The notes below the pieces were generated by a model. The model was not told the origin of the DNA. It ran no database searches and was given only the letters and a program-made list of their open reading frames with translations. The position numbers were made by a program, and so were the translations under genes. Positions 1 through 24,905 of a stretch of 61,716 nt of DNA are shown here, one piece after another. Position 1 is the first letter of the stretch. Every line of letters begins with the position of its first letter. The stretch is from Candidatus Zixiibacteriota bacterium (GTDB lineage Bacteria > Zixibacteria > MSB-5A5 > GN15 > PGXB01), in the NCBI GenBank assembly GCA_016933955.1, contig JAFGTT010000011.1:1-61716 (forward strand), in the 5' to 3' direction.

Positions 1-2211
1 CGGACCAACGTTCTCCAGCTGAACATCCAGCAAAATCGACTCCCCGCAGTTCACCAAACCATCTCCATTACCCAAACCGTCATCGATGCTATGAGCATCA
101 TGAATCACAAATGGTCCATCGGGAGATATAATCTGAACGGTGGTAATATAGGGTACCCGATTCTGGGCGGTGATAACAAGGTCCATTTCACCAACCGTTC
201 CAAACGGGGTGATTGGAATATCGGCCGAACCGGCATCATCAATATAAGCGGCACCGTGCAGAACGCCATTGAAAGTAATCCCGACGTATGAACCGGGATC
301 AGCCTCGACATGAAAAGTCTCGGCGGAAAGCAAAACGGTGGCTTCATGAGAGATGTTGTTTTCCGATGGGATACCCAGGTATGTCGAAACCGAGGGGTCA
401 CCCATCAGGTGATAAATTTCCCAGTAATAGGTAACGCGCGAACCGCCCTCGCAGACAGCCAGGTTACCGGCAAAGACGACGGCATCGTTGGTCACATAAT
501 GGCGTTCGACCGGTTCGGAATGGTCGTGGAAGACACCATCATAAGCACCCTGGGTTGTCTGTTCATAAGTCGGACCGGAGCCGACAATAGGTCCATAACC
601 GACACCCCAGAAATAGTCTTCATCCCAGTAAGTTGAATTCGAACCGCCAATATATCCGATACCACCCTTACCTTCGATCTGCAGGAACGCCTCGCCGAAA
701 CAGGGATCGGAATAATCGGTTCCAAAGGTATTGGACTGACAGCAATTGCCGATTCCCAGCAGATATTTATGATAGTTGGTGAGAGCGGCAAGGTGACTGG
801 TTTCAAATGATGGAGTAGCATGCCCGTCATGACTGCAGTGAGCGGTATAATTATATAATCCTATACCATCGCTGACGGTCTGACGAATATCGGCCGCGGC
901 GGTACCCCCGTTTGACGCCGGGTAGAGCCAGACATTGGGATCGATTCCGTGGGCGGTATTGAAGTAATAAGTGGTTCCGTAATTAATCTGACCATTGCCA
1001 TAGGTGCTGGCGTAGGAGGCATCAACTCCCGAAACCAGGGTAACGAATTCCAGATAGCTGGGATCGGGCATTTCATAGCGTTCATATTCAATGGTTTTAT
1101 CGATTTGAGGTTGCAGTTGCGTGGTATTCTGTGCGGAAAATCGACCATAGTATATTTCCGGAAGATTGTCATTGGTGAATTCACAGAGCCGCAGGTCGGT
1201 AATATGAGAGCCGGCCGAGCCTGAAAAGGGAGGAATCTGTTGAGCGTCACCGACCAGCAAAACGAATGATGGGGCCGGGTCCTCCGGCGGACTGGCGGCA
1301 TTATAGACGCTCTGAATATAGCTTTTAATAGCGGTATTGGTGGTTCCGATCACATCGGTATAAGCCACCTGGACAATAAAGCCCTTCTTGGTTTTCCATT
1401 CAATAAACGGTTGCAACTGGTCCTCGAACATCCGGTGTGAAATAATGAGGTATTTAACCGGGTATTTGACCAGATTCAGCGAATCGCCGCGGATGCCTTC
1501 ATCGAACCCGGAGTAATTTGAGATCAGGTTGTAAATCGGTTCAAAGAAGGGGCTGTAATATTTGTCCCGCATTTCACGGGTTTTATCCCAGTCCGAATTA
1601 TTAAAAGTAACCTGAACCGTGATATTTTTATAAACCCGGAGGCGATTTTCAACCGGATTGTATTCCATCGGGGAGATGGCGACCGTTCCCAGATTCAGAT
1701 CTCGCAGAACACCTGAAATTTCGGTCCGAACCAGTTCCTGACGATAGAAGTCGTTGGTACGATAAACCGTCTGATCCCACTCGAATGGCATCGCCTCGGG
1801 ATCATCCGACTTCGAAAGGGAGGGTTGAGCGGGCATAACCGGCTGGGTTATATTCATGTCAGCCAGGGAAATATCCTCGACTTCGAAATCAATCACGGTA
1901 GCGGTTAGATCACTACCGAAAGGTATGGCGATCAGTTTCTTTGATTGTGGAAGATTCGGACGGCCGACATCATAGGTTCGGGCCAATCCATCGGCCGTAA
2001 TCATAGTAAAATCGCCGGCCTTGGTGTGAACGGGAATAAATTCTATTTGCCCCACATCCAATTTTACCGTAATGCCGTTCTGATCCTGATTCAGAACTTT
2101 CATTCCGGCCGGGGCTTCACTCAGCTGAATCGATTGATAGGCAGAGGCAGTTCCGAAAACGCCAGTGCAGAATAAAAGGATCAGCCATGTTCCAATTGTC
2201 AATTTTTTCAA
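1..2211 (-). CDS. C25 (gingipain-like) cysteine peptidase, secreted, 3' end outside window
   Basis: An open frame of 737 codons runs from a TTG start at 2211 off the left edge, so the C-terminus is missing. GGAGG lies 6 nt before the TTG and no better ATG exists nearby. Residues 1-24 form a signal peptide (Lys-Lys n-region, hydrophobic core). The middle carries the C25 dyad: His458 in AHCSHDGH and Cys490 in GIGNCCQS, 32 residues apart as in gingipains, followed by a FGEAF element and a GIGYIGGSN strand. Residues after about 600 look like Ig-like beta domains, and the last visible codons (NCGESILLDVQLENVGP) resemble a CARDB-type module. C25 peptidases are secreted endopeptidases, often type IX cargo with C-terminal sorting tails; whether this one has a tail or a dockerin cannot be seen. 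It has its own promoter and leader. Confidence 0.88.
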   Translation of the reverse strand, partial: MKKLTIGTWLILLFCTGVFGTASAYQSIQLSEAPAGMKVLNQDQNGITVKLDVGQIEFIPVHTKAGDFTMITADGLARTYDVGRPNLPQSKKLIAIPFGSDLTATVIDFEVEDISLADMNITQPVMPAQPSLSKSDDPEAMPFEWDQTVYRTNDFYRQELVRTEISGVLRDLNLGTVAISPMEYNPVENRLRVYKNITVQVTFNNSDWDKTREMRDKYYSPFFEPIYNLISNYSGFDEGIRGDSLNLVKYPVKYLIISHRMFEDQLQPFIEWKTKKGFIVQVAYTDVIGTTNTAIKSYIQSVYNAASPPEDPAPSFVLLVGDAQQIPPFSGSAGSHITDLRLCEFTNDNLPEIYYGRFSAQNTTQLQPQIDKTIEYERYEMPDPSYLEFVTLVSGVDASYASTYGNGQINYGTTYYFNTAHGIDPNVWLYPASNGGTAAADIRQTVSDGIGLYNYTAHCSHDGHATPSFETSHLAALTNYHKYLLGIGNCCQSNTFGTDYSDPCFGEAFLQIEGKGGIGYIGGSNSTYWDEDYFWGVGYGPIVGSGPTYEQTTQGAYDGVFHDHSEPVERHYVTNDAVVFAGNLAVCEGGSRVTYYWEIYHLMGDPSVSTYLGIPSENNISHEATVLLSAETFHVEADPGSYVGITFNGVLHGAAYIDDAGSADIPITPFGTVGEMDLVITAQNRVPYITTVQIISPDGPFVIHDAHSIDDGLGNGDGLVNCGESILLDVQLENVGP

Positions 2212-2547: not shown

Positions 2548-3519
2548 TCAACACTCCGGGGCGGGACCGCCATTGTAAAGATATTTTATCAGATAGGTGA
2601 CATCGAGAATATTGATAAAACCGGAATTGTCAACATCTCCCGCCGCCTCAGGAATCGGAGCCGGCCCACCCAGATAAAGGTAGCTAATCAGGTAGGTGGC
2701 ATCAAGAATGTTGATCAGGCCGTTATTGTTGACATCACCGCATAAAAAGCCAATAATGGTCACTGCCCCCGGAATCAATTCCACCAGATTAGTATCGAGA
2801 TGAGGGTAATAAGACGTGTCATAGACACATGAGTCGCCGGTTGTCCCGGGCGCCGGTTGCCATTCCAAACAGATTGTGTCATCAGGAGGTTCCATCCACG
2901 CGACACATTCATAACAATTGGTATCGACAATGGTATCGATACTCGTACCGAGGGAATGGCCATAAAGGTCTGAAAAGCTTATCGACTGCAGGGGATTAAT
3001 GATTATATCTGCCGTACTGTCAGTAATAAATTCAGGAATATCATAAGTATCCGCAAAAAACTTAATAAGAGGGATATCGCCATTTTGAGGCGCCATGAAC
3101 GCGGTATTAACAGGCGGTTTCAGATCGTTGAGCAAGGCCGTAACCTTCACATCATGACCGGATTCGCCCCGGGATACGGCCGCTACAATATCCCATCCGG
3201 ACAGCAATGTCCCCGCCGTGTCGAAGTTGACATGAACGACCGAGTCGGTTTCGGAAACCTGTTGCCAGTAATGCTGAAATTCAAAGATATCGGACCGGTC
3301 GACAACCATCCAGAATTCCAATCCGGCGATGGTATCGGCATAATTCGCCAGATAGACCGGGATTTCTATACCGGTTTGTTCCGACCAGGTAGCAACACTG
3401 TCGACCCGGATGACAATCTCGGGCTCCTGGGCCAAAGCCGGGATTGCAAAAAGCAAAAATAATGCAATCAGGAACAGTCGTCCGGATTGTGAACTAAGGG
3501 ATTTGAGGGTGGGGCGCAT
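2548..3519 (-). CDS. secreted protein with cohesin-like domain and C-terminal type I dockerin
   Basis: 323 residues. I start at the ATG at 3519 because TGGAGGAA sits 5 nt upstream; an ATG 12 nt earlier lacks such a site. Residues 1-31 are a signal peptide ending ALAQ. Residues about 32-195 look like a cohesin/immunoglobulin-type beta domain (IPVYLANYADTIAGLEF pattern, later GDIPLIKFF), with a Cys-containing insert around 205-250. The last 65 residues are two Ca-binding dockerin repeats, GDVNNNGLINILDATYLI and GDVDNSGFINILDVTYLI, then a short GGPAPEC end. Dockerins bind cohesins on other proteins; having both modules on one chain would allow head-to-tail assembly (inference). It is a paralog of the 3731-4714 product. 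The cohesin call is from pattern only. Confidence 0.82.
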   Translation of the reverse strand: MRPTLKSLSSQSGRLFLIALFLLFAIPALAQEPEIVIRVDSVATWSEQTGIEIPVYLANYADTIAGLEFWMVVDRSDIFEFQHYWQQVSETDSVVHVNFDTAGTLLSGWDIVAAVSRGESGHDVKVTALLNDLKPPVNTAFMAPQNGDIPLIKFFADTYDIPEFITDSTADIIINPLQSISFSDLYGHSLGTSIDTIVDTNCYECVAWMEPPDDTICLEWQPAPGTTGDSCVYDTSYYPHLDTNLVELIPGAVTIIGFLCGDVNNNGLINILDATYLISYLYLGGPAPIPEAAGDVDNSGFINILDVTYLIKYLYNGGPAPEC

Positions 3520-3558
3520 AGTTTCCTCCATTTCAGAATTTGGGGTTGTTTAAAGGCA

Positions 3559-3569
3559 ATCCCTTAGCA
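3559..3569 (-). promoter_or_regulatory. conserved leader element GCTAAGGGATT
   Basis: The 11-mer GCTAAGGGATT (minus strand) lies 40 nt upstream of the ATG at 3519. An identical copy lies 39 nt upstream of the ATG of the paralog at 4714. Both leaders also share ATTCTG and GGAGGA further down. It may be a relic of the gene duplication or a shared regulatory or RNA element; no function is shown. Confidence 0.35.
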
Positions 3570-3659
3570 AATTCTTCAAATTACTTCCTTAATGAGAAAA
3601 TTGCGATAATCCAAATTCAAAAAAGTAAGTAAGCTCCTGCAATCAGGGAACATATAATA

Positions 3660-3687
3660 ATTATACCATTTTAATCACAATTGTCAA
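3660..3687 (-). promoter_or_regulatory. sigma-70-type promoter of the dockerin gene at 2548-3519
   Basis: Minus strand: TTGACA (3682-3687), 16-nt spacer, TATAAT (3660-3665). Predicted leader of about 135 nt. The layout matches the promoter at 2394-2421. Confidence 0.65.
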
Positions 3688-3730
3688 GATTAAAAGGCCC
3701 ATTCCATCGATGTTCGAATCCTGTCTATCG

Positions 3731-4714
3731 TCAGTCACCACATATATTCTGATGATCCTGACAGGAACAAAAAGAGCAATAAGGCGGAATACTGTAAATA
3801 TATGAAAGAATACAGGTTGCGTCAAGAATATTCAACTGGCAACTGCAATTAACATCGGCCTGATCGGGCAATGGCGGCGACGATGCGCCTCGATAAAGGT
3901 AATTTATCATGTATGTGACATCGAGAATATTGATGACCCCGTCATCATTGGCGTCGCCCATAAACTGGCAGGAGGTCCTCGGGGGGAAAATGATCTCGCC
4001 GTCTAACATATAGACCATTGATGTATCGAGATGGTGGTTGATATATTTGGGGCCGATCACGGTTGTGTCGGCAGGCGGTTCAGGGACTTCTTCCCAATCA
4101 TTGCAAACGGTATCGCCGCCGGGAGTGACCTCCCATTCAAGGCAGTTGTAGTAGGATGTGTCCAGAATGGTATCGTAAGCCAGGCCGATCGACTTGCCGT
4201 TGGGATCGGAAAAATTGAAATATTGATACTCCTTGATAATTTCAATTGTAGCAATCTGGGGAACAGATAACAGCGAATCAGTACTTATATCGGTGACGAT
4301 TTTTACCAGAGGAATTTCCCCTACCTGGGGATAGGCTATTCCAGAAACATAAGGAGGGTGGGTGGCATTGGCAATGGCGGTAATCTGTATTCCGGTGGTT
4401 CCATAGGAGCTTTTGTAAATAACCTGCCATCCGGAAACAAGGGTGCCGGTGGTATCCAGGACACCATTGGCCAGGTCAAGCAGATCGGGTCGATCGTTGT
4501 CAAGAGTCAAAAGAAAACCGGCAATAGTATCGGCGTAATTACTCATGCTGACCGGTATGATAACCTGATCCTGACCAATGCTGACCGAGGTGTCATTGAC
4601 CCGAACGACCAGATCGGGAAACTGGGCCCGGGCCGGATCGGGAATCAGGATGAAAATACAGCAAATTATTAAAAAGAAAAAACATATCCCAAGGGATCCC
4701 AAACAGAGGCGCAT
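3731..4714 (-). CDS. secreted protein with cohesin-like domain and Cys-rich dockerin
   Basis: 327 residues; ATG at 4714 preceded by GGAGGAG. Signal peptide 1-30 (long hydrophobic core, end near ARAQ). Residues about 31-185 repeat the cohesin-like pattern of the 2548 product (IIPVSMSNYADTIAGF, GEIPLVKIV), followed by the same insert with Cys and Trp (NCLEWE, DTVCNDW, HLDTSMV). The C-terminus has dockerin repeats GDANDDGVINILDVTYMI and ADVNCSCQLNILDATCI, then a tail with CSFCSCQ and ICGD. This Cys-rich second repeat and tail also occurs in the 4959 and 5539 products but not in the 2548 or 9485 products. Likely an exported structural or adaptor protein; binding partners are not identified. Confidence 0.82.
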   Translation of the reverse strand: MRLCLGSLGICFFFLIICCIFILIPDPARAQFPDLVVRVNDTSVSIGQDQVIIPVSMSNYADTIAGFLLTLDNDRPDLLDLANGVLDTTGTLVSGWQVIYKSSYGTTGIQITAIANATHPPYVSGIAYPQVGEIPLVKIVTDISTDSLLSVPQIATIEIIKEYQYFNFSDPNGKSIGLAYDTILDTSYYNCLEWEVTPGGDTVCNDWEEVPEPPADTTVIGPKYINHHLDTSMVYMLDGEIIFPPRTSCQFMGDANDDGVINILDVTYMINYLYRGASSPPLPDQADVNCSCQLNILDATCILSYIYSIPPYCSFCSCQDHQNICGD

Positions 4715-4752
4715 AAACTCCTCCAGAATATTCTTACTAATTGACTCCGGTA

Positions 4753-4763
4753 AATCCCTTAGC
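4753..4763 (-). promoter_or_regulatory. second copy of leader element GCTAAGGGATT
   Basis: Same 11-mer as at 3559-3569, 39 nt before the ATG at 4714. It lies between the candidate promoter and the ribosome binding site of the gene, so it would be transcribed. Confidence 0.35.
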
Positions 4764-4837
4764 GATAAGACAATATATTAACGTAACCTCTTGAAGTAAA
4801 AAATCACCATAGCTGGTTTCTACAAAGTTCAAATATT

Positions 4838-4865
4838 AAGATAAGAAAATTATACGTTTTGTCAA
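4838..4865 (-). promoter_or_regulatory. sigma-70-type promoter of the dockerin gene at 3731-4714
   Basis: Minus strand: TTGACA (4860-4865), 16-nt spacer, TATCTT (4838-4843). The -10 box is weaker than in the two neighbouring dockerin-cluster promoters, but spacing and the -35 match. Leader about 120 nt. Confidence 0.5.
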
Positions 4866-4875
4866 GATATTTATA

Positions 4876-4913
4876 GCCGGGATTTCCGGGGCGGAGCCCC
4901 GGATTCACCCGGC
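4876..4913 (-). terminator. strong GC hairpin after the small dockerin gene
   Basis: Nested inverted repeats: outer GCCGGG/CCCGGC and inner TCCGGGGC/GCCCCGGA around a GGA loop. It lies downstream of the stop at 4959 and just upstream of the next promoter. There is no U-run after it, so it could be a terminator of another kind or an mRNA 3'-end stabiliser. Confidence 0.45.
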
Positions 4914-4958
4914 CATAAGTTATTGATGCTGAAGCTATTTTACCTTCTAATAAGCCTA

Positions 4959-5423
4959 TTACCTGGGATCTTCTCCGCAATTGTCATACCAGTCTTCGCA
5001 GGTGCAGTCGGATGGCCAGATATCCCGATAAACGGTGTATATAATGGCCGTAATATCCCTGATATTTAACAGACAATCGCAGTTGAAATCGGCCTCGGCA
5101 AAACATGGCGGCCGCGTGCCGCTCTTATACAGATAGGCCACCAGATAGGTAATGTCCAGAATATTGAAAGAGCCATTTCCGTTGACATCACCCTTGAACT
5201 GGCAACAGCGCCAGATACAGGGATTATCCTGGCAGTTCAGGTCCGCTTCCCATGAGTTCATATCCGGCAAAGCCTGACATTCCTCAATAGTAAGCATGTC
5301 ACATGACAGATCTTCCTGCGTTCCATAACAGCATCGTCCGACTTGCCCCTGAGCCGGGCAGGCCATAACACAGATGGCGGCAAGAATCAAGGCGGGTGAG
5401 GTGAAAGCAAACAGCCTTTTCAT
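4959..5423 (-). CDS. small secreted Cys-rich protein with dockerin
   Basis: 154 residues from the ATG at 5423, chosen because GGGAGG lies 5 nt upstream; an in-frame upstream ATG at 5471 would put a charged stretch before the signal peptide. Residues 1-27 are a signal peptide ending AQGQ. Residues 28-70 form a Cys motif (GRCCYG, EECQALPD, LNCQDNPC) of a kind I associate with secreted repeat proteins in such phyla. The rest is a dockerin pair (GDVNGNGSFNILDITYLV; ADFNCDCLLNIRDITAI) with the CTCEDWYDNCGEDPR tail. It follows the 5539 gene by 115 nt with no promoter or terminator seen, so the two are probably co-transcribed. It could be a minimal plug-in unit of a dockerin-based assembly; the function is unknown. 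Confidence 0.75.
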   Translation of the reverse strand: MKRLFAFTSPALILAAICVMACPAQGQVGRCCYGTQEDLSCDMLTIEECQALPDMNSWEADLNCQDNPCIWRCCQFKGDVNGNGSFNILDITYLVAYLYKSGTRPPCFAEADFNCDCLLNIRDITAIIYTVYRDIWPSDCTCEDWYDNCGEDPR

Positions 5424-5538
5424 AAATCCTCCCTTCATTTCATCCTCTAAATCGAGGATTCTCTCTTCCAAAATCAGTCTATTCTTTCCATAGACCGTTG
5501 ACTATTACTACTGAAACTTTATTTCCTTTCAAAATCCA

Positions 5539-8500
5539 TCACCAGGGATCATCGCCGCATTTGTCAACCCATTGCTCACAGGTGCAAAATTCACATGTCC
5601 CTGTATAAAGTCTTCCGATCATACACGTTATGTCCAGGATATTGATGGAGCAACTGCAATTGACATCGGCATGAGCCGGGCACGGCGGTGCTGGACCCTC
5701 CTTATACAGATAGTTGAGTAGATATGTTATATCGAGAATGTTATAGATTCCGTTGTTATTGATATCCCCCATCATTACGCAGCATGAGGTTTCTCCTTCC
5801 GGCCATTCGAAAATGGGTGCCGGGGCATTGGCGATCCAGTTTCTGGCTTCATCGATACTCTGCTGTAAGCCGGCCAGGCCGCCATCATATTCGGTGGCCA
5901 GGATTTTGACAAAAACCAGCGTATCCCCGACCTTGAGATTGAATTTCCCATAAACGGCGACCGTGAACAAATCCTGATACATCGAATCCGGCATGCCCGG
6001 GTTGACAGCCTCCCAGGTTTCCCATGAAGTCCCCATACTGGCGATCTTGCGGTAAAAGGCGCCGGGGACAATACCGCCGGTCGGGGCAAACCACTCCAGC
6101 TGGCGATGGGTCCACCAGGGGCCGGCCGGATTCTGAAGGCTGTCGGAAGTGACACGGAAGGGGATTTTATAGCCATTGTAGAAAGCCAGTCCGCCCATCC
6201 GCGCGTCGGCCGGAACACAATCATTATTGGCGGTAGCATCGGGACCGTATTCGGCACCATACTGGTACATAAGATCGCGGCTTTCATCACCGCCAACTGC
6301 ATCATATCCCGAACCATTGTCGATTATGGAGTCGGAAGGGATATCGAAATCGATAATATCCCCGATATAAACACCGTTCAGGGTGTGATCGGTATTATTA
6401 TAAACCTCGTGGCGCAAAACCAGGAAATCACAGCTATCGGGCGATTTCGGGGCGTAATATTCAATCCTCATAGCCACGGCCGAATCATAGGTAATAAATC
6501 TTCCGGTTTGAACATAACGGAATTCCGGGAAGCTGGTTGAATCGACTGTAATGGCTGTTTGAGGATAGAAACCCTTGGGAGACCCCCAATAACCGTCACG
6601 CATGTCATAGTTTATTATGGTATCGCCGGATTCGTTTATTCTCAGAACGAAAGGACTGCCGGTGTAAACATAAATAAGGGCATTATCGTCGCTTCCTTCA
6701 TTGTTGTCGGTAGTATCGCAGTCATCGAAGAAATTCAGATGTTTGCCGCCATATCCACTAAATGGGCTGTAACCGTCGTTGCCGAAATTCCCGGAATTAT
6801 CGAGAATTAGGGCCTTACATTCGGTTCGGATTTCGGTGAATTCCGGGAATGGCAGATCATCGACTACAATCAGATCGACCTTAACTGTGTCTGTAACGCC
6901 TTCGCCCATATCATAGTTGATTAAAATATAGCCCTCGACATTCCAGGTTCCTGATGAAATGACACCGTCATAGTTCAAGTAAACGTCCAGATCATAGTAA
7001 TTTGGAGTCGTTCCCGAAATAATTATGGGCCCGTGATTGCCGACTTCAAGCCACCCGGCCGGACCGCTCAGGATTTCTGTATCTATTGATGACATGACCA
7101 GATCCGAACTGCCGAAGTTCTCTATATGCAATGTAGTATCAAGTTGTACTCCGGGCGATGTCCAGGTCGGAAAGCCGATATCGGCAATGTCGGGGGGCGG
7201 GGGTGGTTCGGTTGATGGGTCCACGCAGGGGACCCGGAACCATTTGACCGGATTGAGCGTCCAGACCCCGGCATCCCGCAGGCACGATCCGGGATGTTTG
7301 TCGTTAATATACAGGACATCAAGAAACTGATTCCCGCTGTAACTTCCCGATGGATCAACGACCGGGACGCCGGTAAAATCACCATCTGTGACGGTCATAC
7401 CATAACGGGAAATAGACGGCCACATATCGGACTCACATTCGATTGATCCCGATTCACTGCAATTTGGAGAATAGGAATTGGAAAGATTCCGGGCAACATC
7501 CCAGTTTAAACCTCCATTGTCTGAAACGCACAGGTAGACTTCGCCATCGGCCGTTCCATCCCAGTCACCGGAGGTGAAATAATCCTGGTGGCAGTCATCA
7601 TCAATACCGCTCTGGTAATCATTGAACTGGACGAAAATGGTATAGAATTTCCCGGCACACTCGGAGATCATCGGTTTAACCATATACATATTGTTGAATT
7701 CGCCGCCGGTGCAGGTTTGTTCGCCTTCAGCCCAGCCGGCATCCTTGATGGTTCTGACCAGATTATAATTCTCGCCCCAGTGGAAAAGCCTTCCACCATA
7801 GTAGTTTTCCCAGTCACCCAGCGAATATCCGTTGGGAACAGCCTTGCGGGCGTTCCAGACGATATGGAGGTAATCATCGGTATCGATCAGGGCGGATATA
7901 TCGTTACTGGCCAGGTAGCCTCCGACCGATGAATCATAACCGCTGATATTATGTTTGGCTCCCCATGATGCGCCCATGTCATTGGATATCATGTAGTAGA
8001 CATCATTGGTATGCAGGCTGCTTCCAAGCGAGGGGTCATCCATATCTCGCGTTTGTGATTCCGCACTTCCCGGAATTTCAGGCGGCGGTGCCAGCCAGAT
8101 CAGGGCGGCTTTGCCGGAGGTACGTGACGATGTCACAGTGTTAGAATAGGATCGGGTGGTATCGATCACGACTGCCGGATAATCCCAGGTGTAGTTTGAA
8201 TCGGTTGGCCCTCCGAGACGCCGGAAGTAATGAATGAATGCCGAAGCGCCATCCAGGCGGTTCATCCGTGCAAAAATATGGGTGACGATATCGCCTTCAA
8301 GGACCTGGTACTCGATTGAAGGCCAGAGAAAAGCGGCGTGATCATAAGGAGCATAAAGTTCCGATGGCACATTTGACCCGGTAATAATATCGGGAACCGG
8401 TGTACGGTATGGCGAAAAATAACATGAGTAGGCAAAGGCTTCATAATGAATTGTTGGCCGCAGTTCATATTCGTCATAGCTGTCATCCGATTCAAGGTAA

Positions 8501-8934
8501 TTTGTGGCGATTACGACCTTTCCGGTTTTAGTCACATCAAGATACCCGTAACCCGAAAGAGTTACGGGACTGGAGATATTGCACCCTCCCATACTGCCCT
8601 GGAAAGAAAGGGCGGCCAAATCGGCATCCCATATTTCATACTTCGTTGAGGTTGGTTGATATATATTAATAATCGGTTCGGGAATTGATGTCCAGGTCAT
8701 GCGGACTATCTGATCATTGCGCCAATCGATCTGCCGGCCCATTCGCCCCATACTCTGTTCATCATAATAGGTTTGCCCGATTATATATCCGGGAGACTCA
8801 TGGCGAATGGCATCGGTTGAGACTTGAATGTCGGCGCTGGATTTTACCGATGTCTTTTTATGCCGGCCCGACGCCCACGCCACTGATAAGGCTATTGTCA
8901 ATACCAGGAATAATATCGAAATATTCCTTAACAT
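5539..8934 (-). CDS. large secreted protein with Asp-box (BNR-like) motifs and C-terminal dockerin
   Basis: 1131 residues from the ATG at 8934 (GAGGGAG just upstream; a GTG 24 nt earlier is the alternative). Signal peptide 1-22. Residues about 100-560 contain sialidase/BNR-style Asp-box motifs SNDMGASW and SDNGGLNW, suggesting a beta-propeller. Around 580-690 there is a Pro-rich linker and an Ig-like segment with DLVMSSIDTE. Residues about 700-1040 form another large domain without recognised motifs. The C-terminus is a dockerin (GDINNNGIYNILDITYLL; ADVNCSCSINILDITCM) with the Cys tail CTCEQWVDKCGDDPW. No catalytic residues can be assigned, so I do not call it a sialidase. It is likely a surface or scaffold-attached binding protein. 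Confidence 0.8.
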   Translation of the reverse strand: MLRNISILFLVLTIALSVAWASGRHKKTSVKSSADIQVSTDAIRHESPGYIIGQTYYDEQSMGRMGRQIDWRNDQIVRMTWTSIPEPIINIYQPTSTKYEIWDADLAALSFQGSMGGCNISSPVTLSGYGYLDVTKTGKVVIATNYLESDDSYDEYELRPTIHYEAFAYSCYFSPYRTPVPDIITGSNVPSELYAPYDHAAFLWPSIEYQVLEGDIVTHIFARMNRLDGASAFIHYFRRLGGPTDSNYTWDYPAVVIDTTRSYSNTVTSSRTSGKAALIWLAPPPEIPGSAESQTRDMDDPSLGSSLHTNDVYYMISNDMGASWGAKHNISGYDSSVGGYLASNDISALIDTDDYLHIVWNARKAVPNGYSLGDWENYYGGRLFHWGENYNLVRTIKDAGWAEGEQTCTGGEFNNMYMVKPMISECAGKFYTIFVQFNDYQSGIDDDCHQDYFTSGDWDGTADGEVYLCVSDNGGLNWDVARNLSNSYSPNCSESGSIECESDMWPSISRYGMTVTDGDFTGVPVVDPSGSYSGNQFLDVLYINDKHPGSCLRDAGVWTLNPVKWFRVPCVDPSTEPPPPPDIADIGFPTWTSPGVQLDTTLHIENFGSSDLVMSSIDTEILSGPAGWLEVGNHGPIIISGTTPNYYDLDVYLNYDGVISSGTWNVEGYILINYDMGEGVTDTVKVDLIVVDDLPFPEFTEIRTECKALILDNSGNFGNDGYSPFSGYGGKHLNFFDDCDTTDNNEGSDDNALIYVYTGSPFVLRINESGDTIINYDMRDGYWGSPKGFYPQTAITVDSTSFPEFRYVQTGRFITYDSAVAMRIEYYAPKSPDSCDFLVLRHEVYNNTDHTLNGVYIGDIIDFDIPSDSIIDNGSGYDAVGGDESRDLMYQYGAEYGPDATANNDCVPADARMGGLAFYNGYKIPFRVTSDSLQNPAGPWWTHRQLEWFAPTGGIVPGAFYRKIASMGTSWETWEAVNPGMPDSMYQDLFTVAVYGKFNLKVGDTLVFVKILATEYDGGLAGLQQSIDEARNWIANAPAPIFEWPEGETSCCVMMGDINNNGIYNILDITYLLNYLYKEGPAPPCPAHADVNCSCSINILDITCMIGRLYTGTCEFCTCEQWVDKCGDDPW

Positions 8935-9097
8935 AGCTCCCTCTCTAATTTCCCTCACGTTAAGTGTTTAAAATTCAAATACTTCCATTATTTATAGCAA
9001 TAGCAAGGGTTAATGAGGCTTGTGGGGATTTTATAAAAACATATTGCACTTTGGATTACCAAAGCCGACAGCGAATTGTCGCCTGCCTTATAATTGT

Positions 9098-9126
9098 AAA
9101 ATAAGATCAAATAGTGTTTTGGTCAA
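9098..9126 (-). promoter_or_regulatory. possible promoter of the large dockerin gene at 5539-8934
   Basis: Minus strand: TTGACC (9121-9126), 17-nt spacer, TATTTT (9098-9103). One mismatch at -35 and two at -10. Position (about 165 nt leader) and the CTTGACC context mirror the neighbouring dockerin promoters. Confidence 0.4.
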
Positions 9127-9265
9127 GTATTTTCTTTATAACTTATGAATTTTTAATAACTTATATGAGCTTATGACTATTTTTCATATTTTGGCCCCCG
9201 ATGAGTATTTAGTACTTGAAATAAGCGTATGTTCATATAAAATAATCAGTTACCGATTAATATGG

Positions 9266-9293
9266 TTGACAGTGGAGAATAATGAGTTATATT
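9266..9293 (+). promoter_or_regulatory. sigma-70-type promoter of the papain-like protease gene
   Basis: TTGACA (9266-9271), 16-nt spacer, TATATT (9288-9293). Transcription would start near 9300, leaving a leader of about 185 nt. Confidence 0.6.
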
Positions 9294-9484
9294 TATTTAC
9301 CATATAAAAATGAGAATTATTTGCCCGCGAGGTTGTACCTTTTGAGAATCTTTTTTGGGACTGCGGATGCTTATCGTGAATTTTCTCGCACGTACAGGAT
9401 TTCTTTTTTCCGGACCGGAGACATTTAAATCCGCCTTATTTATAATGAGAATAATTTTAATTGAAATATGAGGATGGCTGTCAG

Positions 9485-12400
9485 ATGAGAAGTTTTAAAG
9501 GAGTGAATGGTCTTATTATTCTGGTTTTGGCCATGATTTCGGCGGCAACGGCCCTGGCCCAGTTGTCGAGCAAGGATATCGAACAATTGGAGATTCGGGC
9601 CAGACAGGAAAACTGGACGTTTTCGGTCGGGGAGAATCCGGCCACACAATATCCTCTGGAGCAGTTATGCGGTTTGAAAATTCCTGATAATCCGCAGGAC
9701 GAGTCCCTCTTCGGCAATATCAAAGCCGATCGCGATCTACCTGCGGCTTTCGACTGGCGCGATTCCACCGGGTGTCCTCCGGTCAAGAATCAGGGCGGAT
9801 GCGGCAGTTGCTGGGCCTTCGGTACGGTTGGCGCCCTGGAATGCAATATTCTTATCAAAGATGGTCTGACGGTTGATCTCTCGGAACAGTGGCTAGTCAG
9901 CTGCAACCAGGATGGTTATGACTGTGAGGGCGGCTGGTGGGCTCATGATTACCACCAATGGAAAACTGATCCCTGCGGCGGTTTCGGAGCCGTGATGGAA
10001 GAAGATTTCCCTTATACCGCCACCAACGGGACCTGTAATTGTCCCTATGATCATTATTACACGATTGATTCCTGGGGGTATATCGGAAATTCCTACAGCA
10101 TCCCGTCGGTTTCGGCAATGAAGCAGGCCATTCTCGATTACGGGCCGATTTCAGTAGCCGTCTATGCCAACAGCGCTATGCAGGCCTATACGGGCGGAAT
10201 ATTCAATGGATGCGCCTCGGGTACGGTCAATCACGGGGTGGTTCTGGTGGGCTGGGATGACAGCCAGGGAACCAGCGGCGTCTGGATTATGCGCAATTCC
10301 TGGGGAACCGGCTGGGGCGAAGAGGGTGGATACATGCGGATGGAATATGGCTGTTCCAGCATCGGTTACGGAGCCAGCTATGTTGTCTATACCGGATATG
10401 GCGCCCTGGCCTTCGATTATCCGGATGGTATTCCCGAATCCGTTACTCCCGGCCAGGCCGAAACATTCAGTGTTGTTGTTTCCGGCATATCGACCGGTCA
10501 GCCGGTTTCGGGGACCGGGCAGTTGCATTATTCGATCAACGGCGATCCGATCCAGACGGTGGCCATGGATGAGATTTCGCCCAACAATTATGAGGCAGTT
10601 TTGCCGGTTTTGTCATGCTATGACAGGATAGAATTTTATGTTAGTGCCGAGGAAATGACATCCGGCGTGTTTTATGATCCGGATCCCAGTTTGCCCCATA
10701 TGGCGGCGGCCGCGACGGAAGTCATCAGTGTTTTTACGGATAATTTCGAAACCGACAAAGGCTGGACGGTTACCGGGGATGCCGCGGACGGGCAATGGAA
10801 CCGGGGTATTCCGGCCGGAGGAGGGGAACGCGGTGATCCCCCGACCGATTATGACGGTTCGGGGCAGTGTTATCTGACGGATAACGAGTACGGAAATTCC
10901 GATGTCGATGACGGCACCACCAACCTGATCTCGCCGGTCTTTGCGGTCCCGGCGGGTGATGCGCTGGTCCATTATGCCCGTTGGTACTCCAACGATTTCG
11001 GGGCTGATCCTAATAATGATGAGATGAATGTATATATCTCCAACGATGGCGGAGTGAACTGGACGCTGGTTGAGACAATCGGCCCGGTAGAACAGGCCTA
11101 CGGCGGCTGGTACAAATATAGTTTCTGGATTTCGGACCTGATTACCCCGACGACAACAATGAAATTAAAATTCGAGGCCTCGGATTTGAACAGCGGTTCG
11201 GTGGTCGAGGCCGGCGTTGATGATATCGTTATCAAGGTCTTTGTGTGCGACAGCAATCAACCGATCATTATGACCGACAGTTTACCGAACTGGACGGCCG
11301 GAATGCCTTATTCTCAGCAACTCGAGGCTACCAGTGGAACCGGCCAGTACACCTGGAGCGATAAGTACAATAATCTGGCGGGAACGGGGTTGAGTCTGTC
11401 GGATTCCGGTTTGATTTCGGGGACCCCGACGGTTTCGGGATTACATGTCTTTACGGCCGTGGTAACCGATGAAGCAAGCGCTTTCGACGAAAAAATATTG
11501 AGTATCCAGGTCAATGCCGCTCTGCAAATTACGACCGACATCCTGCCCGACTGGACGGCCGGAGTGACGTACAATAAAACTCTGCAGGTAAGCGGTGGCA
11601 CATCCCCCCTGAGCTGGAGCGATAAAAGCAACGATCTTACCGGAAGCGGTTTCACTCTTTCGACTGCCGGTGTCCTCAGCGGAATGCCGGTGGCGGCCGG
11701 GACAGTGTCGTTTACAGCGGCCGTCAGCGATCAGATCGGGGCGGTCGATGAACAATTACTGTCATTTGCCGTCAATGAATCGCTGGAGATAACCACAGTT
11801 TCTCTTCCGGACTGGACGGCCGGTGTCTTTTTTACGCAGATGCTTCAGGCGACCGGAGGAACAGCCCCACTAACCTGGTCGGATAAAAATTCCAGCCTGG
11901 CCGGAACGGGACTGACTCTGACCGCCGCGGGACGTCTCTCGGGGACATCGTCTATAGCCAGGCAGATTATCTTCACCGCGCAGTTGGCTGACGGAGTGGG
12001 TGATATTGAGGAAGTGCCCTTTATTTTTATTATAAATCCGGCGGTCAGTATTTTGAGTGAAAACCTGTTGCCGGCCACGGCCGGATTTGATTATGATTTC
12101 CCGCTGGTAATAACCGGGGGAACAGGTGAAGTGATTGTGACCGATTTGAATGGTGATCTGGAGGGAACCGGATTGGAAATTGCGTCCGATGGATTGATCA
12201 GCGGGACTCCGCTCTCATCGGGTCAGGCAACCTTCACGGTTCACGCTGTCGATTCGATCGGTTCCTCGGATGAGGAAATCTTCACCCTGACAATAAACGC
12301 GCCGGTAACAATCGCAACCGAATCACTTCCGGATGGATTACAGGGCGAGGCATATTCGGTTCAGATTGAGGCGGGCGGTGGGACCGATCCATTGACCTGG

Positions 12401-12769
12401 ACCGATAAAAACGGTGATCTGGAAGAAACCGGTCTGATTTTATCGGAAGAGGGGTTACTTGAAGGAACGCCCACGATTTCCGGGGAAATCGAATGCACGA
12501 TTCTGGTTGAGGATATTTACGGCAGTCAGGATGAAAAAGGCTATACCATCAATATCGCTGCTCCCTTCATTTGCGGTGACGCCAATGATGACGAGAGTAT
12601 CAATGTTCTCGATGCTACCTATTTAATCAAGTATTTGTACAGCGAGGGGGCGGCTCCCAATCCGGCGGAATCGGCCGATGTCAACAGTAGCGGGGCGATC
12701 AATATTCTCGATGTGACTTACCTGTTGAATTATTTGTATACAAGCGGCGGGGCGCCTTATTGTCCGTAG
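9485..12769 (+). CDS. secreted papain-like (C1A) protease with five Ig-like repeats and dockerin
   Basis: 1094 residues from the ATG at 9485; GAGG lies 11 nt upstream, and an in-frame TTG at 9461 is the alternative. Signal peptide 1-25, short propeptide, then a C1A domain from about residue 86 (FDWRD) to 310. The oxyanion Gln and catalytic Cys109 are in NQGGCGSCWAF, His250 in VNHGVVLVGW and Asn271 in NSWGTGWGE, so the triad is complete. Residues about 420-590 resemble a jelly-roll/MAM-like module with DGGVNW. Five repeats of about 86 residues (593-1020) follow, each with LPDWTAG-like start, GG-T-PL-W-DK and GLISGTP-like motifs (He_PIG/putative Ig family). The end is a dockerin (GDANDDESINVLDATYLI; ADVNSSGAINILDVTYLL) without the Cys tail. 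Probably an exported, surface-assembled peptidase. Confidence 0.92.
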   Translation: MRSFKGVNGLIILVLAMISAATALAQLSSKDIEQLEIRARQENWTFSVGENPATQYPLEQLCGLKIPDNPQDESLFGNIKADRDLPAAFDWRDSTGCPPVKNQGGCGSCWAFGTVGALECNILIKDGLTVDLSEQWLVSCNQDGYDCEGGWWAHDYHQWKTDPCGGFGAVMEEDFPYTATNGTCNCPYDHYYTIDSWGYIGNSYSIPSVSAMKQAILDYGPISVAVYANSAMQAYTGGIFNGCASGTVNHGVVLVGWDDSQGTSGVWIMRNSWGTGWGEEGGYMRMEYGCSSIGYGASYVVYTGYGALAFDYPDGIPESVTPGQAETFSVVVSGISTGQPVSGTGQLHYSINGDPIQTVAMDEISPNNYEAVLPVLSCYDRIEFYVSAEEMTSGVFYDPDPSLPHMAAAATEVISVFTDNFETDKGWTVTGDAADGQWNRGIPAGGGERGDPPTDYDGSGQCYLTDNEYGNSDVDDGTTNLISPVFAVPAGDALVHYARWYSNDFGADPNNDEMNVYISNDGGVNWTLVETIGPVEQAYGGWYKYSFWISDLITPTTTMKLKFEASDLNSGSVVEAGVDDIVIKVFVCDSNQPIIMTDSLPNWTAGMPYSQQLEATSGTGQYTWSDKYNNLAGTGLSLSDSGLISGTPTVSGLHVFTAVVTDEASAFDEKILSIQVNAALQITTDILPDWTAGVTYNKTLQVSGGTSPLSWSDKSNDLTGSGFTLSTAGVLSGMPVAAGTVSFTAAVSDQIGAVDEQLLSFAVNESLEITTVSLPDWTAGVFFTQMLQATGGTAPLTWSDKNSSLAGTGLTLTAAGRLSGTSSIARQIIFTAQLADGVGDIEEVPFIFIINPAVSILSENLLPATAGFDYDFPLVITGGTGEVIVTDLNGDLEGTGLEIASDGLISGTPLSSGQATFTVHAVDSIGSSDEEIFTLTINAPVTIATESLPDGLQGEAYSVQIEAGGGTDPLTWTDKNGDLEETGLILSEEGLLEGTPTISGEIECTILVEDIYGSQDEKGYTINIAAPFICGDANDDESINVLDATYLIKYLYSEGAAPNPAESADVNSSGAINILDVTYLLNYLYTSGGAPYCP

Positions 12770-12878: not shown

Positions 12879-14864
12879 TTACTTTTCAGCAAGATGGTCC
12901 TGTAGTTTCTGGGTCTTGGTAATAAGGTTCATAAGATCGACGATTTCCACCGATTGGTTTTCCTCGAAAATCCCCTGAACCATCTGATAAACCGTTTCAA
13001 GTTTGGAATCTCTGGCCCAGTATGATTTGCCAAGAATCTCAGCGAACTCAGCGGCCGCTGCGGCCAGTCTGAAGTTGGCCGATTGTTGTTCGAATTCCTT
13101 TAAGAACAGGGCCCGGTCAATCTTGCGGCTGACTTCGTGGACAATTTCAGCATCCGGCTCCTTATAGCGGATAAAAACCGTCCCCAATGGAAGACGCGAT
13201 TTCTGCGGGTTGAGTTTGATTTCATAGAGAGCGGTAACCTGGTGGCCGGATCCGATCTCACCCCCGTCTTCCTTGTCGTCGCGGAATTTGTCATCGGCAA
13301 CATCACGATTCTCATAACCGATCAGGCGATAACTGCGGACCACAGCGGGGTCGAAATCAACCTGGATTTTAACATCGCGGGCGATTACCTGAAGAGTTCC
13401 GGTCAGGTTTTCCATGAAAATCCTCCGCGCTTCGGCGATATCATCGACATATGCATAATGACCGTTGCCTTTATCGCCCAGTTTCTCCATCAGAATATCA
13501 TTAAAATTGCCCATTCCGAATCCGACCGTGGTCAGGGTGATGCCTTTGTCCGCGAAACGCTTGATCTGCTTCAGTATTTCATCGGGTCCGGTGGTTCCGA
13601 CATTAGCGACGCCATCGGAGCAGAGGATGATACGGTTGATTTTTTCCGGCTCGAAGTATTTCTCGGCCATTTCATAGCCAAGATGGATTCCTTCCTCGGC
13701 ATTGGTGGCCCCGTCGGTTTGCAGCCATTCGATTGCGGAGAGAATCTGGTTTTTATCATGAATGGAAGTCGGCTCGAGAACCACCCGGCCACTGGAGCCA
13801 TAGACCACAATACCGACCCGGTCGCGCGATTCGAGATTATCGACCAGAATGCGAAGCGCCTTTTTGACCAGGCCCAACCGATCCTCGCGAGCCATGGAAC
13901 CGGAAATATCGATAACAAAAACAAGATTGGCCGGTTTACGGTTTTCGGGATTTATTTCCCGTCCCTTGATCCCGATCCGCAGTAATTCGCAATTCTGACC
14001 GAAATACGATCCCGAACCATCGATATTGATACTGAATTGTTCTTCCCGGGGAGATTCATAATTGTATTTAAAATGATTAATGAATTCTTCGGTGCGAATG
14101 GCTTCATCGGGCGGCAACTCACCTCGTTCGAGATAAGAGCGGGTCATAATATACGAGGCATCATCGACGTCGATGGCAAATGTGGACAGGTGATCGTCTT
14201 CGGTATCGACAAAAGGATTGGTGCCGTAATCTTTGAAAAACATGGCGTCAAACGGCTCACCGTTGACAATGGCGGTTCCGCCGTGGGCCGGCCCGTAGCT
14301 CCCCCAGGGATTACAGGTTCTGCCTTTATCTGCCGGACAGGGAGCAATTGGAACCAATCCGCTGTAATTGGCTATATTGCCGACCGCGTTTTTCTTGGCT
14401 TCCGATTGACGTAAGAGCCAATCATTACTTGTGGTTATGATTTCTTCGAAACTCATTTGAGAATCGGGTAAAGCGGGCCGCTCGACTATATCACCATTGG
14501 CCGTCATTCTGATAACTCCGGCGGATTCATCGGCGGCTTTTTCCATCTTGAGACTGAGAGTGGTAACCAAACCGGCTGATACCCGGACACTATCGACCTG
14601 GATTGTATGGTACGATGATGATGTGAATCTAATAGTATAATATCCGGGTGCAACAAAATTAATAAGATACATTCCCCGGGAATCGGTAATAGTACGATCA
14701 CCGGTTTCCATGATGGTCATGGTGACTCCCTGAATCGGGTTCCCGGTTTCATGGTCGGTGATAATACCCGTGATTTTGGCGGTCGGGCCGGCACTGATAA
14801 TGATGGGCAGCAAAGCAATGACCGCCATCAAAGCCATTCCCGATACAATAATTCCGGTCTTCAT
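12879..14864 (-). CDS. YfbK-type von Willebrand factor A domain protein with carboxypeptidase-regulatory-like domain
   Basis: 661 residues; ATG at 14864 with AGGAGG upstream. Signal peptide 1-25. Residues 27-105 form a CarboxypepD_reg-like beta sandwich (GIITDHETGNPIQGVTM). About 215-270 matches the N-terminal domain of the YfbK family (STFAIDVDDASY, RTEEFINHF). The VWA domain (about 305-480) has an intact MIDAS: DISGS near 318, a conserved Thr in TDGATN and a SDGVAN Asp. The C-terminal 170 residues match the DUF3520 region. Such proteins bind partners through a metal-dependent site; their role is poorly known and they often sit beside ECF sigma factors. Here the sigma/anti-sigma pair is divergent, 185 bp away, which fits a shared envelope function (inference). 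Confidence 0.88.
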   Translation of the reverse strand: MKTGIIVSGMALMAVIALLPIIISAGPTAKITGIITDHETGNPIQGVTMTIMETGDRTITDSRGMYLINFVAPGYYTIRFTSSSYHTIQVDSVRVSAGLVTTLSLKMEKAADESAGVIRMTANGDIVERPALPDSQMSFEEIITTSNDWLLRQSEAKKNAVGNIANYSGLVPIAPCPADKGRTCNPWGSYGPAHGGTAIVNGEPFDAMFFKDYGTNPFVDTEDDHLSTFAIDVDDASYIMTRSYLERGELPPDEAIRTEEFINHFKYNYESPREEQFSINIDGSGSYFGQNCELLRIGIKGREINPENRKPANLVFVIDISGSMAREDRLGLVKKALRILVDNLESRDRVGIVVYGSSGRVVLEPTSIHDKNQILSAIEWLQTDGATNAEEGIHLGYEMAEKYFEPEKINRIILCSDGVANVGTTGPDEILKQIKRFADKGITLTTVGFGMGNFNDILMEKLGDKGNGHYAYVDDIAEARRIFMENLTGTLQVIARDVKIQVDFDPAVVRSYRLIGYENRDVADDKFRDDKEDGGEIGSGHQVTALYEIKLNPQKSRLPLGTVFIRYKEPDAEIVHEVSRKIDRALFLKEFEQQSANFRLAAAAAEFAEILGKSYWARDSKLETVYQMVQGIFEENQSVEIVDLMNLITKTQKLQDHLAEK

Positions 14865-15005: not shown

Positions 15006-15049
15006 TATTAGGCAACCGATAGTCCATCAAAGGTGTCTTAGGATTGAAC

Positions 15050-15625
15050 ATGGATAGACAGCAGTTCTGGAAGCTTCTCGAGCCGATCCATCCTGCGGCG
15101 GAGGCCTTCTGCCGAAAGTTGACGGGAAACCGTGACGATGGCGATGATCTTTACCAGGAAGGATTGCTGGCGGCGATAGTGAAGATCGAGTCTTTGAAGG
15201 ACCCGAACTCCTTCAGGCCCTGGCTTTATCGAATCCTCGTCAACCGTTTCAAAAACCGGTACCGGAGATCCTGGTGGAGTCGGAAGATTGACCGATCGGC
15301 AAACGGGAGCGCCACGAGCGGGATTTTCGATCCGAGAGGAGAGTATGATTCCAGGCGCTGGCTGGAACGAACCATGCGGGTGTTGTCGGCCGAAGACCGG
15401 GCTCTGATTCTGTTGTATGAGATCGAAGGCTGGAAAGTTGCGGAACTGGCATCCATGTTCGGCAAGCCGGAAGGGACCATCAAGGCTCGATTGTTTCGGG
15501 CCAGACGAAAGATGCGCGAGGTGGTTGAAAATTACCTGGCGCGGACGGAAACCGTAAACTCTGCAGGCGAGGCAATACATGGCAAAGAAAAATATGCGAT
15601 GCCGGGAAGCGATTCGGCGGATTAA
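15050..15625 (+). CDS. ECF-family RNA polymerase sigma factor
   Basis: 191 residues from the ATG at 15050, which has AGGA 6 nt upstream; a TTG at 15044 is the alternative. Region 2 is visible at residues about 10-75 (DDGDDLYQEGLLAAI, RPWLYRILVNRFKNRYR) and region 4 at about 112-160, with the helix-turn-helix WKVAELASMFGKPEGTIKARLFRARRKM. Regions 1.1 and 3 are absent, as usual for extracytoplasmic-function sigma factors of 160-200 residues. It overlaps the next gene by 47 nt, the typical coupling of a sigma factor to its anti-sigma. It probably directs envelope or stress genes; the signal is unknown. Confidence 0.92.
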   Translation: MDRQQFWKLLEPIHPAAEAFCRKLTGNRDDGDDLYQEGLLAAIVKIESLKDPNSFRPWLYRILVNRFKNRYRRSWWSRKIDRSANGSATSGIFDPRGEYDSRRWLERTMRVLSAEDRALILLYEIEGWKVAELASMFGKPEGTIKARLFRARRKMREVVENYLARTETVNSAGEAIHGKEKYAMPGSDSAD

Positions 15626-16613
15626 TGAAAATGCCGGAGAGCTTGATCGGGTAACCGTCGAGCATATCAAACAATGCCCGTCATGCGCCCGCGCGGCGGA
15701 ATCGGCCAGGCAATTACAAAGACTGCTCGAATCGGCCAAAACCAAAGACACCGGACCGATGACGGACTTCTCGCAAATGCGAAGTAAAATCGAGGAGATG
15801 TCATCGTCGCCTAAAAAGGAGACTATCATGTCAGCTATGAAGAATCAATTGATGACTCGTCCAAAATTACTGGCCGGGTTGGGCCTGGCCCTGGGAGTGT
15901 TTTTATTTATTACTCTGGTACCTTTTTCCTATACCACCACGGTCGGTTATCAGATTACGCTCGCCGATGTGCCATCGACGGCTGTTGAGCCGGGACGGAT
16001 CGGTGAGGCCCTGGCGGCGCTGGGTTATGGCGAAGCCAATGTCAATCTGAATGAAGGAGAGTGCCTGATTTCCAATCTGCCGGATAAAAAGGCGGCGCGC
16101 GAAGCGGCCATTGCTTTCACCGCTTTAACCGGGATGAGCACAGAGCCGGTTATCGAACCTATGATCGCCAGAGTCTCCGGTTCGATCTATGCCCAGGTGA
16201 TGAATAACTTCAGGGTCGAAGTTGATACTCAGGGTAAGACCGATCAGGAAATCGCCGCCGAAATCAGACAGAAGCTGGCGGCGGGGGGGATGATTGATCC
16301 GAACGTATCGGTAACGACCACCGGCGACCAGATGCTAATTTCTGTATCATCGAATCAGACTATCGGTGACCGGCAAACGGAAGAGAAAATGGAACTGCAA
16401 TTTGATCTGAATGGATCGGATAAAGTTACTTTTGATACACCCGAAGGGCCCCCAGCGGTTGAAGTCGATACCGAAGGTAAAACCGCCGATGAAATTAAAG
16501 CCGAGATTGAAGCCAGACTGGCGGCCGAAGGCAAGGATAATGCCCAGGTCGAGGTAATCACTCTTCCCGATGGACGATATGAAATCAAGGTGACCATGGA
16601 AGATCTAAAATGA
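15579..16613 (+). CDS. membrane anti-sigma factor with zinc-finger (ZAS) motif
   Basis: 344 residues. The N-terminus has Cys8 and His29-x3-Cys33-x2-Cys36, the zinc-binding anti-sigma pattern, followed by one membrane span at about 94-114. This gives a cytoplasmic sigma-binding domain and a periplasmic part of about 230 residues. The periplasmic part contains an internal duplication: two copies of about 45 residues starting VEVDTQGKTDQEI (about 212) and VEVDTEGKTADEI (about 291). The start lies inside the sigma gene, so translation is coupled. It should hold the sigma factor at the membrane until a signal reaches the periplasmic repeats (inference). The conserved Cys/His arrangement makes the family assignment fairly safe despite the long C-terminal part. 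Confidence 0.85.
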   Translation: MAKKNMRCREAIRRINENAGELDRVTVEHIKQCPSCARAAESARQLQRLLESAKTKDTGPMTDFSQMRSKIEEMSSSPKKETIMSAMKNQLMTRPKLLAGLGLALGVFLFITLVPFSYTTTVGYQITLADVPSTAVEPGRIGEALAALGYGEANVNLNEGECLISNLPDKKAAREAAIAFTALTGMSTEPVIEPMIARVSGSIYAQVMNNFRVEVDTQGKTDQEIAAEIRQKLAAGGMIDPNVSVTTTGDQMLISVSSNQTIGDRQTEEKMELQFDLNGSDKVTFDTPEGPPAVEVDTEGKTADEIKAEIEARLAAEGKDNAQVEVITLPDGRYEIKVTMEDLK

Positions 16614-24062: not shown

Positions 24063-24905
24063 ATGAGAACCATAGCCTTTTATTTTTTAATATTCGCCTG
24101 TATGTCAGGTATAATTTCGGCCGAAGCGCAGGAAACTCTATATCCCGATTCATTTGATATCAGCAGTCGTTATGCCATTAATGCCATAACCCTGGAGCTG
24201 GATGATACACTTATAATAAAAAGAACCATCGTCAATCATGAGGCCTTTTCTCTGACCGGATTATATTTTTCTGAAAATCTTCCGGTGGAATTTAAAATCG
24301 TCGACCAATCTGTCCGGAAAAACGGACAAGAGATAGACTATATATTTTCACAGGCCCAGTATAATCATGAAATTCCCGATCAAAATACCTTCTCCTGGAT
24401 AATTGATTCTCTTGGAAATGGAAGCGGCTATTCCAATCCGGTCAATCCGGGGGACAGCCTGGAACTGGAGATTCGGATCACGAGTCAGGAATTGGGTGAT
24501 TATATTCTACCGCTTCATAGTACTGTTTTTTACGGAAATAGCACCGGCTTTTTCTCGACCTCGAATGATATTGCGATTGATTTTGTCCTGTCTCTTGATG
24601 TCGATGATGACGGGGGCGAAAACGACTTGATTAATGCGGGGTATTTGCTGTCGAATTCATATCCCAATCCCTTTAACAGTACGGTTGTGATAAAATATGC
24701 CGGTTTCTCGATTTCACATAAACAGGCGATCTTCGAGGTTTTTGATATTCTGGGTCGAAATATTTTCAGGCAGAATTTCACTACGATGAATAATGAAGGT
24801 TTGCTGAACTGGGTTCCCGAGGAATCGATCGGTTCCGGGTTATATTTCTATGTCATGACCATCGGTGAAGAAAAAACGCGGGGTAAACTACTCCTTTTAA
24901 AATAG
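24063..24905 (+). CDS. secreted protein with C-terminal YPNPFN-type (T9SS/FlgD-like) sorting domain
   Basis: 280 residues, signal peptide 1-23 (ISAEAQ end). Residues about 30-190 form one beta-rich domain with no recognised family (repeat-domain or CARDB-like pattern with INAITLELDDTLIIKR). The last 80 residues are a typical C-terminal sorting domain: SNSYPNPFNSTVVIKY, FDILGRNIF, SGLYFYVMT and a basic KLLLLK end. In Bacteroidetes-type organisms this domain directs type IX export and anchoring; FlgD-like Ig domains look similar, so the route is inferred. It sits alone between the GT2 gene and the rml operon. Confidence 0.78.
   Translation: MRTIAFYFLIFACMSGIISAEAQETLYPDSFDISSRYAINAITLELDDTLIIKRTIVNHEAFSLTGLYFSENLPVEFKIVDQSVRKNGQEIDYIFSQAQYNHEIPDQNTFSWIIDSLGNGSGYSNPVNPGDSLELEIRITSQELGDYILPLHSTVFYGNSTGFFSTSNDIAIDFVLSLDVDDDGGENDLINAGYLLSNSYPNPFNSTVVIKYAGFSISHKQAIFEVFDILGRNIFRQNFTTMNNEGLLNWVPEESIGSGLYFYVMTIGEEKTRGKLLLLK

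Follow-up and report, generated by a model that had tools for sequence, protein, structure and literature searches.

Two neighbouring genes in a genome of the uncultured Candidatus Zixiibacteriota encode short exported proteins, A and B (at 2548 and 3731), in each of which an N-terminal domain with a predicted cohesin fold is joined to a C-terminal type I dockerin. We propose, with a probability of about 0.5, that A and B act as monovalent adaptor scaffoldins in a cellulosome-like complex that is proteolytic and is anchored to the surface by type IX secretion, the binding of dockerins by their cohesin domains being putative. The plan of one cohesin and one dockerin on a single exported chain is found in both proteins and in almost all complete relatives, and taken together with the type-IX-tailed cohesins and the peptidase cargo of the same genome it makes an adaptor tier the most economical reading.

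Organization of the dockerin locus

The window, i.e. the whole stretch of 61,716 nucleotides that was analysed, is contig C11 of genome G000 (3.38 Mb, 97% complete). A first-pass annotation, made from the sequence of the window, had described five exported proteins ending in type I dockerins, a YADTIAG pattern in the N-terminal domains of A and B, a papain-like protease and an Asp-box protein among the cargo, and a gingipain-like neighbour. All five dockerin proteins are indeed exported and encoded where they had been placed (Table 1), and their scores exceed the Pfam cut-off for Dockerin_1 (PF00404) of 22.9 bits (48 for A, 33.6 for B, and 23.5, 24.5 and 44.8 for the proteins at 4959, 5539 and 9461, respectively). 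YADTIAG is present in both A and B, which are 39% identical to each other, and the protease and the gingipain-like neighbour were assigned to peptidase families C1 and C25. The Asp-box protein fared less well: the label rests on S-x-D-x-G-x-x-W motifs, which are seen in the protein at 5539, while no Pfam or NCBIfam domain was found in it besides the dockerin.

Table 1. Features of the cohesin-dockerin locus, with positions in the window.
Feature	Position	Strand	Support
C25 gingipain-type peptidase with C25 propeptide and C25_C Ig domain	1-2211	-	Pfam C25, E 2e-54
Cohesin-dockerin protein A, 327 aa including signal peptide, proposed adaptor scaffoldin	2548-3531	-	
Protein A, predicted cohesin-fold domain, new family	2755-3426	-	AlphaFold2 pLDDT 93.1, PDB structure matches
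Protein A, long beta flap (approximate limits) near the last cohesin-core strands	2791-2958	-	C-x2-W ... C-x2-W
Protein A, C-terminal type I dockerin, N-Cys/tail-Cys class	2578-2739	-	51.2 bits, Cys pattern
Cohesin-dockerin protein B, 327 aa, tandem paralogue of protein A	3731-4714	-	
Protein B, predicted cohesin-fold domain	3980-4621	-	AlphaFold2 pLDDT 94.6, PDB structure matches
Protein B, type I dockerin, loop-2-Cys class, Cys-rich tail	3797-3958	-	
Small exported Cys-rich protein; loop-2-Cys class dockerin at 5040-5195	4959-5471	-	
Large exported protein with Asp-box-like motifs; loop-2-Cys class dockerin at 5608-5769	5539-8958	-	
Papain-family C1 peptidase; N-Cys/tail-Cys class dockerin at 12575-12736	9461-12769	+	C1, E 3.6e-49

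The C25 gene is cut off at its 3' end by the end of the contig. For protein A, an ATG at 3519 within the same open reading frame may be the true start, in agreement with the earlier annotation. Besides its catalytic domain and dockerin, the C1 peptidase contains a choice-of-anchor J domain and four He_PIG Ig domains.

Several other features were observed elsewhere in the window. A YfbK-like VWA protein with an N-terminal CarboxypepD_reg domain (12879-14864, minus strand) is divergent from an ECF sigma factor with a possible anti-sigma gene (15044-16613, plus strand). Also on the plus strand are genes for a small exported protein that bears a type IX sorting tail (24063-24905) and for a protein with a PorZ-like tail match at its end (46803-49880). 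On the minus strand, 28386-29845 encodes an exosortase (TIGR02602) with EpsI (TIGR02914); it adjoins glycosyltransferase and polysaccharide genes and coexists with the type IX system of this genome.

Predicted structure of the N-terminal domains

The N-terminal domains of A and B gave no match to any Pfam family with the threshold relaxed to E 10, the domains of eight relatives likewise gave no match to Pfam cohesin (PF00963) at E<=10, and searches of PDB sequences with the domain or the family profile returned chance matches only. Where sequence families were silent, the predicted structures retrieved cohesins. The AlphaFold2 model of mature protein A has a mean pLDDT of 93.1 and shows a short chain whose cohesin is joined to the dockerin by hardly any linker; of its 49 PDB structure matches at E<=1e-3, 47 are to cohesins or to chains that contain one (the exceptions being 7fe5 and 9ifr), with TM by target up to 0.75. 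The domain of protein B, modelled alone, gave cohesins or cohesin-containing chains for all 50 PDB matches listed, with TM by target up to 0.79. A profile-profile comparison (hhalign) of the new family with cohesins gave a probability of 95%, the cohesin side combining a single CipA cohesin with those cohesins of this genome that are Pfam-positive or look-alikes. The first-pass annotation had suggested a cohesin-like identity for the two domains, with structure prediction as the check, and the models have a jelly roll of the cohesin type. The cohesin fold of both domains is thus shown by prediction, and dockerin binding is putative.

A cohesin family with long flaps

As judged from the models, the domains of A and B define a new cohesin family with long Cys/Trp flaps. 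Homologues were gathered through profile and pattern searches. They share an invariant motif, D-T-x-G-T-L-x-S-G-W, the invariance of which may in part reflect ascertainment because the contig scan used it as a pattern, although it is also kept in the set of members that was collected without that pattern. Near the last strands most members have a long beta flap with C-x2-W...C-x2-W, in which C174, W177 and C186 are invariant; the flap strands in the model of protein A span residues 161-177, 186-192 and 199-210. In longer members a second, similar Cys-bearing insert precedes the invariant motif. The members at L114 and L115 have essentially neither flap nor insert, and those at L098 and L105 are without the late flap. 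Almost every complete member ends in a C-terminal dockerin.

In one search of relatives, 76 of the 98 related genomes, counting that of the query, had the family. Its holders among the named relatives are mostly Candidatus Zixiibacteriota or GN15, joined by single MAGs labelled Neomarinimicrobiota, Ignavibacterium and Calditrichota. Three members were found in the query genome, namely A, B and a paralogue on contig C22. Fragmentary profile matches in G041, G055 and G076 were considered as hidden members and rejected, their open reading frames showing only a flap-like motif and belonging to other exported proteins.

The flaps are central to the strongest alternative, according to which the cohesin fold binds some other ligand (a sugar, a peptide or a mineral surface) via the flaps and only the dockerin takes part in assembly, A and B then being adhesive cargo and not scaffold. 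The family is too divergent for Pfam, its flaps are large, rich in Cys and Trp and variable in number, as in a ligand-binding addition, and a related flap motif, YWxC...C, occurs in other exported proteins. Moreover, the PDB matches of protein A include cohesin-fold modules from outside cellulosomes, e.g. 2jh2, a cohesin-like module of Clostridium perfringens. We nevertheless regard this alternative as rather unlikely, since the near-constant fusion to a dockerin argues for a role inside a cohesin-dockerin system, and since the family is tightly linked, in 25 genomes, to genes for cohesins with type IX tails, as described below.

Anchored cohesins and conserved gene neighbourhoods

A search of the rest of the genome for further cohesins, also proposed at the first pass, did find more of them, mostly on proteins with type IX tails. 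Pfam cohesins are present in five open reading frames only. Four of these (668 and 901 aa on contig C22, 298 aa on C30 and 447 aa on C4) carry a type IX sorting tail, of which there are 50 in the whole genome, and the fifth (1040 aa, on C7) ends in a dockerin. The type IX translocon SprA/Sov is present in the genome.

In the relatives, 34 of the 150 best-listed Pfam-cohesin matches are located at most 9 kb from a member of the new family, in 25 genomes, whereas about three would be expected by chance. All 34 cohesin genes are on the same strand as the family member, 33 of them are downstream of it, mostly at a distance of 4-5 kb, and the intervening genes encode type IX tails where examined. 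The query genome has this arrangement on contig C22 (45201-54617, locus L035), where genes for three type-IX-tailed proteins come after the third family member and two of the three products match the Pfam cohesin model, and the gene order recurs in similar form across the phylum. The window pair is not adjacent to a type-IX cohesin gene; in this genome only the C22 paralogue is.

Dockerins of the genome and their cysteines

One search of the genome gave 76 dockerin matches, corresponding to about 70 proteins, with most of the dockerins at the exact C-terminus. Among the 62 dockerins that were parsed, those with a Cys in C-G-D, just before the first Ca loop, always have a Cys in the C-terminal tail as well (34 of 34), those whose Cys is in the second Ca loop instead nearly always do (15 of 16), and those with neither do so in 4 of 12 cases (Fisher p 1e-6, which is only a guide given the relatedness of the sequences and the post hoc choice of categories). 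From these patterns in the sequences we infer that the dockerin module would be closed by two alternative disulfides, and their largely exclusive occurrence suggests a disulfide-stapled dockerin that comes in two classes in one genome. In the window, the dockerins of A and of the C1 peptidase are of the C-G-D/tail-Cys class, and those of B and of the proteins at 4959 and 5539 are of the second-loop class and have further Cys in the tail. Three of the roughly six Cys-rich dockerin tails in the genome fall in this locus, and the local adaptors might therefore, speculatively, serve that class.

Could the dockerins have another function altogether? They might be C-terminal tags, stabilised by Ca2+ and disulfides, that serve folding, sorting or anchoring through a non-cohesin receptor, with the cohesin domains incidental. 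Their uniform position at the very C-terminus would suit such a role, and so would the genomes G044, G055 and G076 (one contig each), which hold 20-42 dockerins and in which neither a Pfam cohesin nor a full-length member of the new family was found. Dockerins are thus usable without recognised cohesins, and these three genomes have either still more divergent cohesins or another dockerin partner. On the other hand, the five genomes without dockerins are also without a Pfam cohesin, and the dockerins have the paired repeats and Ca-binding loops that are established features of cohesin-binding dockerins. A role as mere tags is improbable in our view.

A separate cluster of dockerin genes was observed on contig C7 (4500-18610, locus L038). 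Its products include an M14 carboxypeptidase and a peptidyl-arginine deiminase of the Porphyromonas type, and another of them combines two cohesin-like domains with a dockerin.

Peptidases as cargo

The catalytic domains recognised on the 57 dockerin proteins scanned outside the window are mainly those of peptidases. Families S8 (five proteins), C25 (four) and M14 (three) are the most frequent, and M6, M28, C10, M1, M12B, C39-like and trypsin-like domains occur once each, together with a peptidyl-arginine deiminase. No glycoside hydrolase was found on dockerin proteins among the families listed (71 of 76 entries). Cellulosomes have mainly carbohydrate-active cargo, whereas peptidases dominate here, and the non-cellulosomal, protease-type cargo proposed from the window holds both at the locus and genome-wide.

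Full-length orthologues of the gingipain in G009, G038 and G002 (1635-1747 aa) have a C-terminal dockerin. The neighbouring gingipain therefore belongs to the system, and the truncated gene product of the window probably had a dockerin too. G004, G010 and G014 likewise have a C25 gene next to a family member, which makes four genomes together with that of the window; in all four the gingipain gene is downstream, the family member of the window being a short form (L083, from a Zixiibacteriota MAG, has the same protein as the G014 locus). Compared with the loci of relatives, C25 is the only conserved neighbour of the window family members; for the proteins at 4959, 5539 and 9461, homology to the products of genes near relatives' family members was essentially confined to dockerin or repeat parts.

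A proposed adaptor tier in a surface complex of proteases

In the proposed complex, the adaptors and the other dockerin proteins would be exported by Sec. The dockerin of an adaptor would plug into the cohesins of scaffolds that are held on the outer surface via their type IX tails, and its own cohesin would then take dockerin proteins, among them the co-encoded gingipain, the papain-like protease and the small Cys-rich protein. Proteases would in this way be gathered on the cell or close to it and would digest external protein.

Three observations speak against the adaptor reading, namely the 20-42 dockerins in each of the three genomes without recognised cohesin, the location of the window pair away from any type-IX cohesin gene, and the likeness of adaptor and cargo dockerins, which form no apparent separate classes. 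When adaptor dockerins were compared with cargo dockerins, those of their own genome ranked 1 to 6 of 8, such similarity ranks being noisy, and in the divergent genomes G002 (NLLDIL) and G007 (D-I/V-S) adaptor and cargo dockerins share a visible signature. Classical adaptors keep the specificities of plug and socket separate; given the resemblance seen here, separate specificities are putative and self-association may occur. Self-association into a linear polymer, as raised at the first pass, in which the cohesin of one copy would bind the dockerin of the next to form fibres or a sheet, is less likely than an adaptor and quite improbable, for although the chain is short and almost without linker and its dockerin belongs to the general type found elsewhere in the genome, the genome has only three copies of the family, no repeat or fibre feature is present, the chains would be capped by cargo dockerins, which are of that type too, and known monovalent adaptors share the plan without polymerising. 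The conserved gene neighbourhood, with its anchored cohesin proteins, is likewise more in keeping with an adaptor than with a free polymer.

The adaptor reading can be extended, tentatively, to a display code across the whole phylum, which we consider possible rather than probable. A few type-IX-anchored cohesin hubs and flap-bearing adaptors would then carry about 70 exported proteins, many of them proteases, by way of disulfide-stapled C-terminal dockerins that replace individual type IX sorting tails. The two Cys classes of dockerins may address different sockets.

Comparison with known systems

The nearest precedent is Candidatus Stygibacter (Cloacimonadota), for which a cellulosome-like complex with a surface-anchored scaffoldin has been proposed (PMC8542988), so the general concept is not new. 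There, too, exported enzymes, C25 and S8 peptidases among them, bear C-terminal dockerins, and the C-terminal domain of the scaffoldin was proposed to mediate attachment to the cell surface (PMC8542988). However, Candidatus Stygibacter has one scaffoldin of 3,755 aa with tandem cohesins and CBMs, and glycosidases are among its cargo (PMC8542988), whereas the Zixibacteria genome has several short cohesin proteins, a flap-bearing cohesin-dockerin family and about 70 dockerins, and the families listed for its cargo include no recognised glycoside hydrolase.

Among cellulosomes, a natural monovalent adaptor scaffoldin of a second type recruits dockerin proteins that the main scaffoldin fails to recognise (PMC4959524). 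Such adaptors likewise carry cohesin and dockerin on a single chain (PMC4959524); A and B differ from them in their unrelated lineage, protease cargo and divergent cohesin. With the type I, II and III cohesins (PF00963) the new family shares the predicted fold, the best structural matches including CaCohA2 (6kgf), OlpC (4dh2) and ScaE (2zf9), but identity is only about 8-19% and the long Cys/Trp flaps set it apart.

The cohesin family, the conserved gene cluster and the cysteine-stapled dockerins appear to be new: no Pfam family was found for the cohesin domains of A and B, and no paper on dockerins in Zixibacteria was found in a literature search that covered mainly open-access papers. If the adaptor reading is correct, cohesin-dockerin assembly would extend from the digestion of plant fibre to that of protein, in an uncultured phylum and in connection with type IX secretion. 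A cohesin family missed by current databases and a candidate disulfide-stapled dockerin are added, and both may find use as components in protein scaffolding. Many bacteria have many dockerins and few recognised cohesins, and the present family suggests that some of their cohesins are too divergent for detection by sequence.
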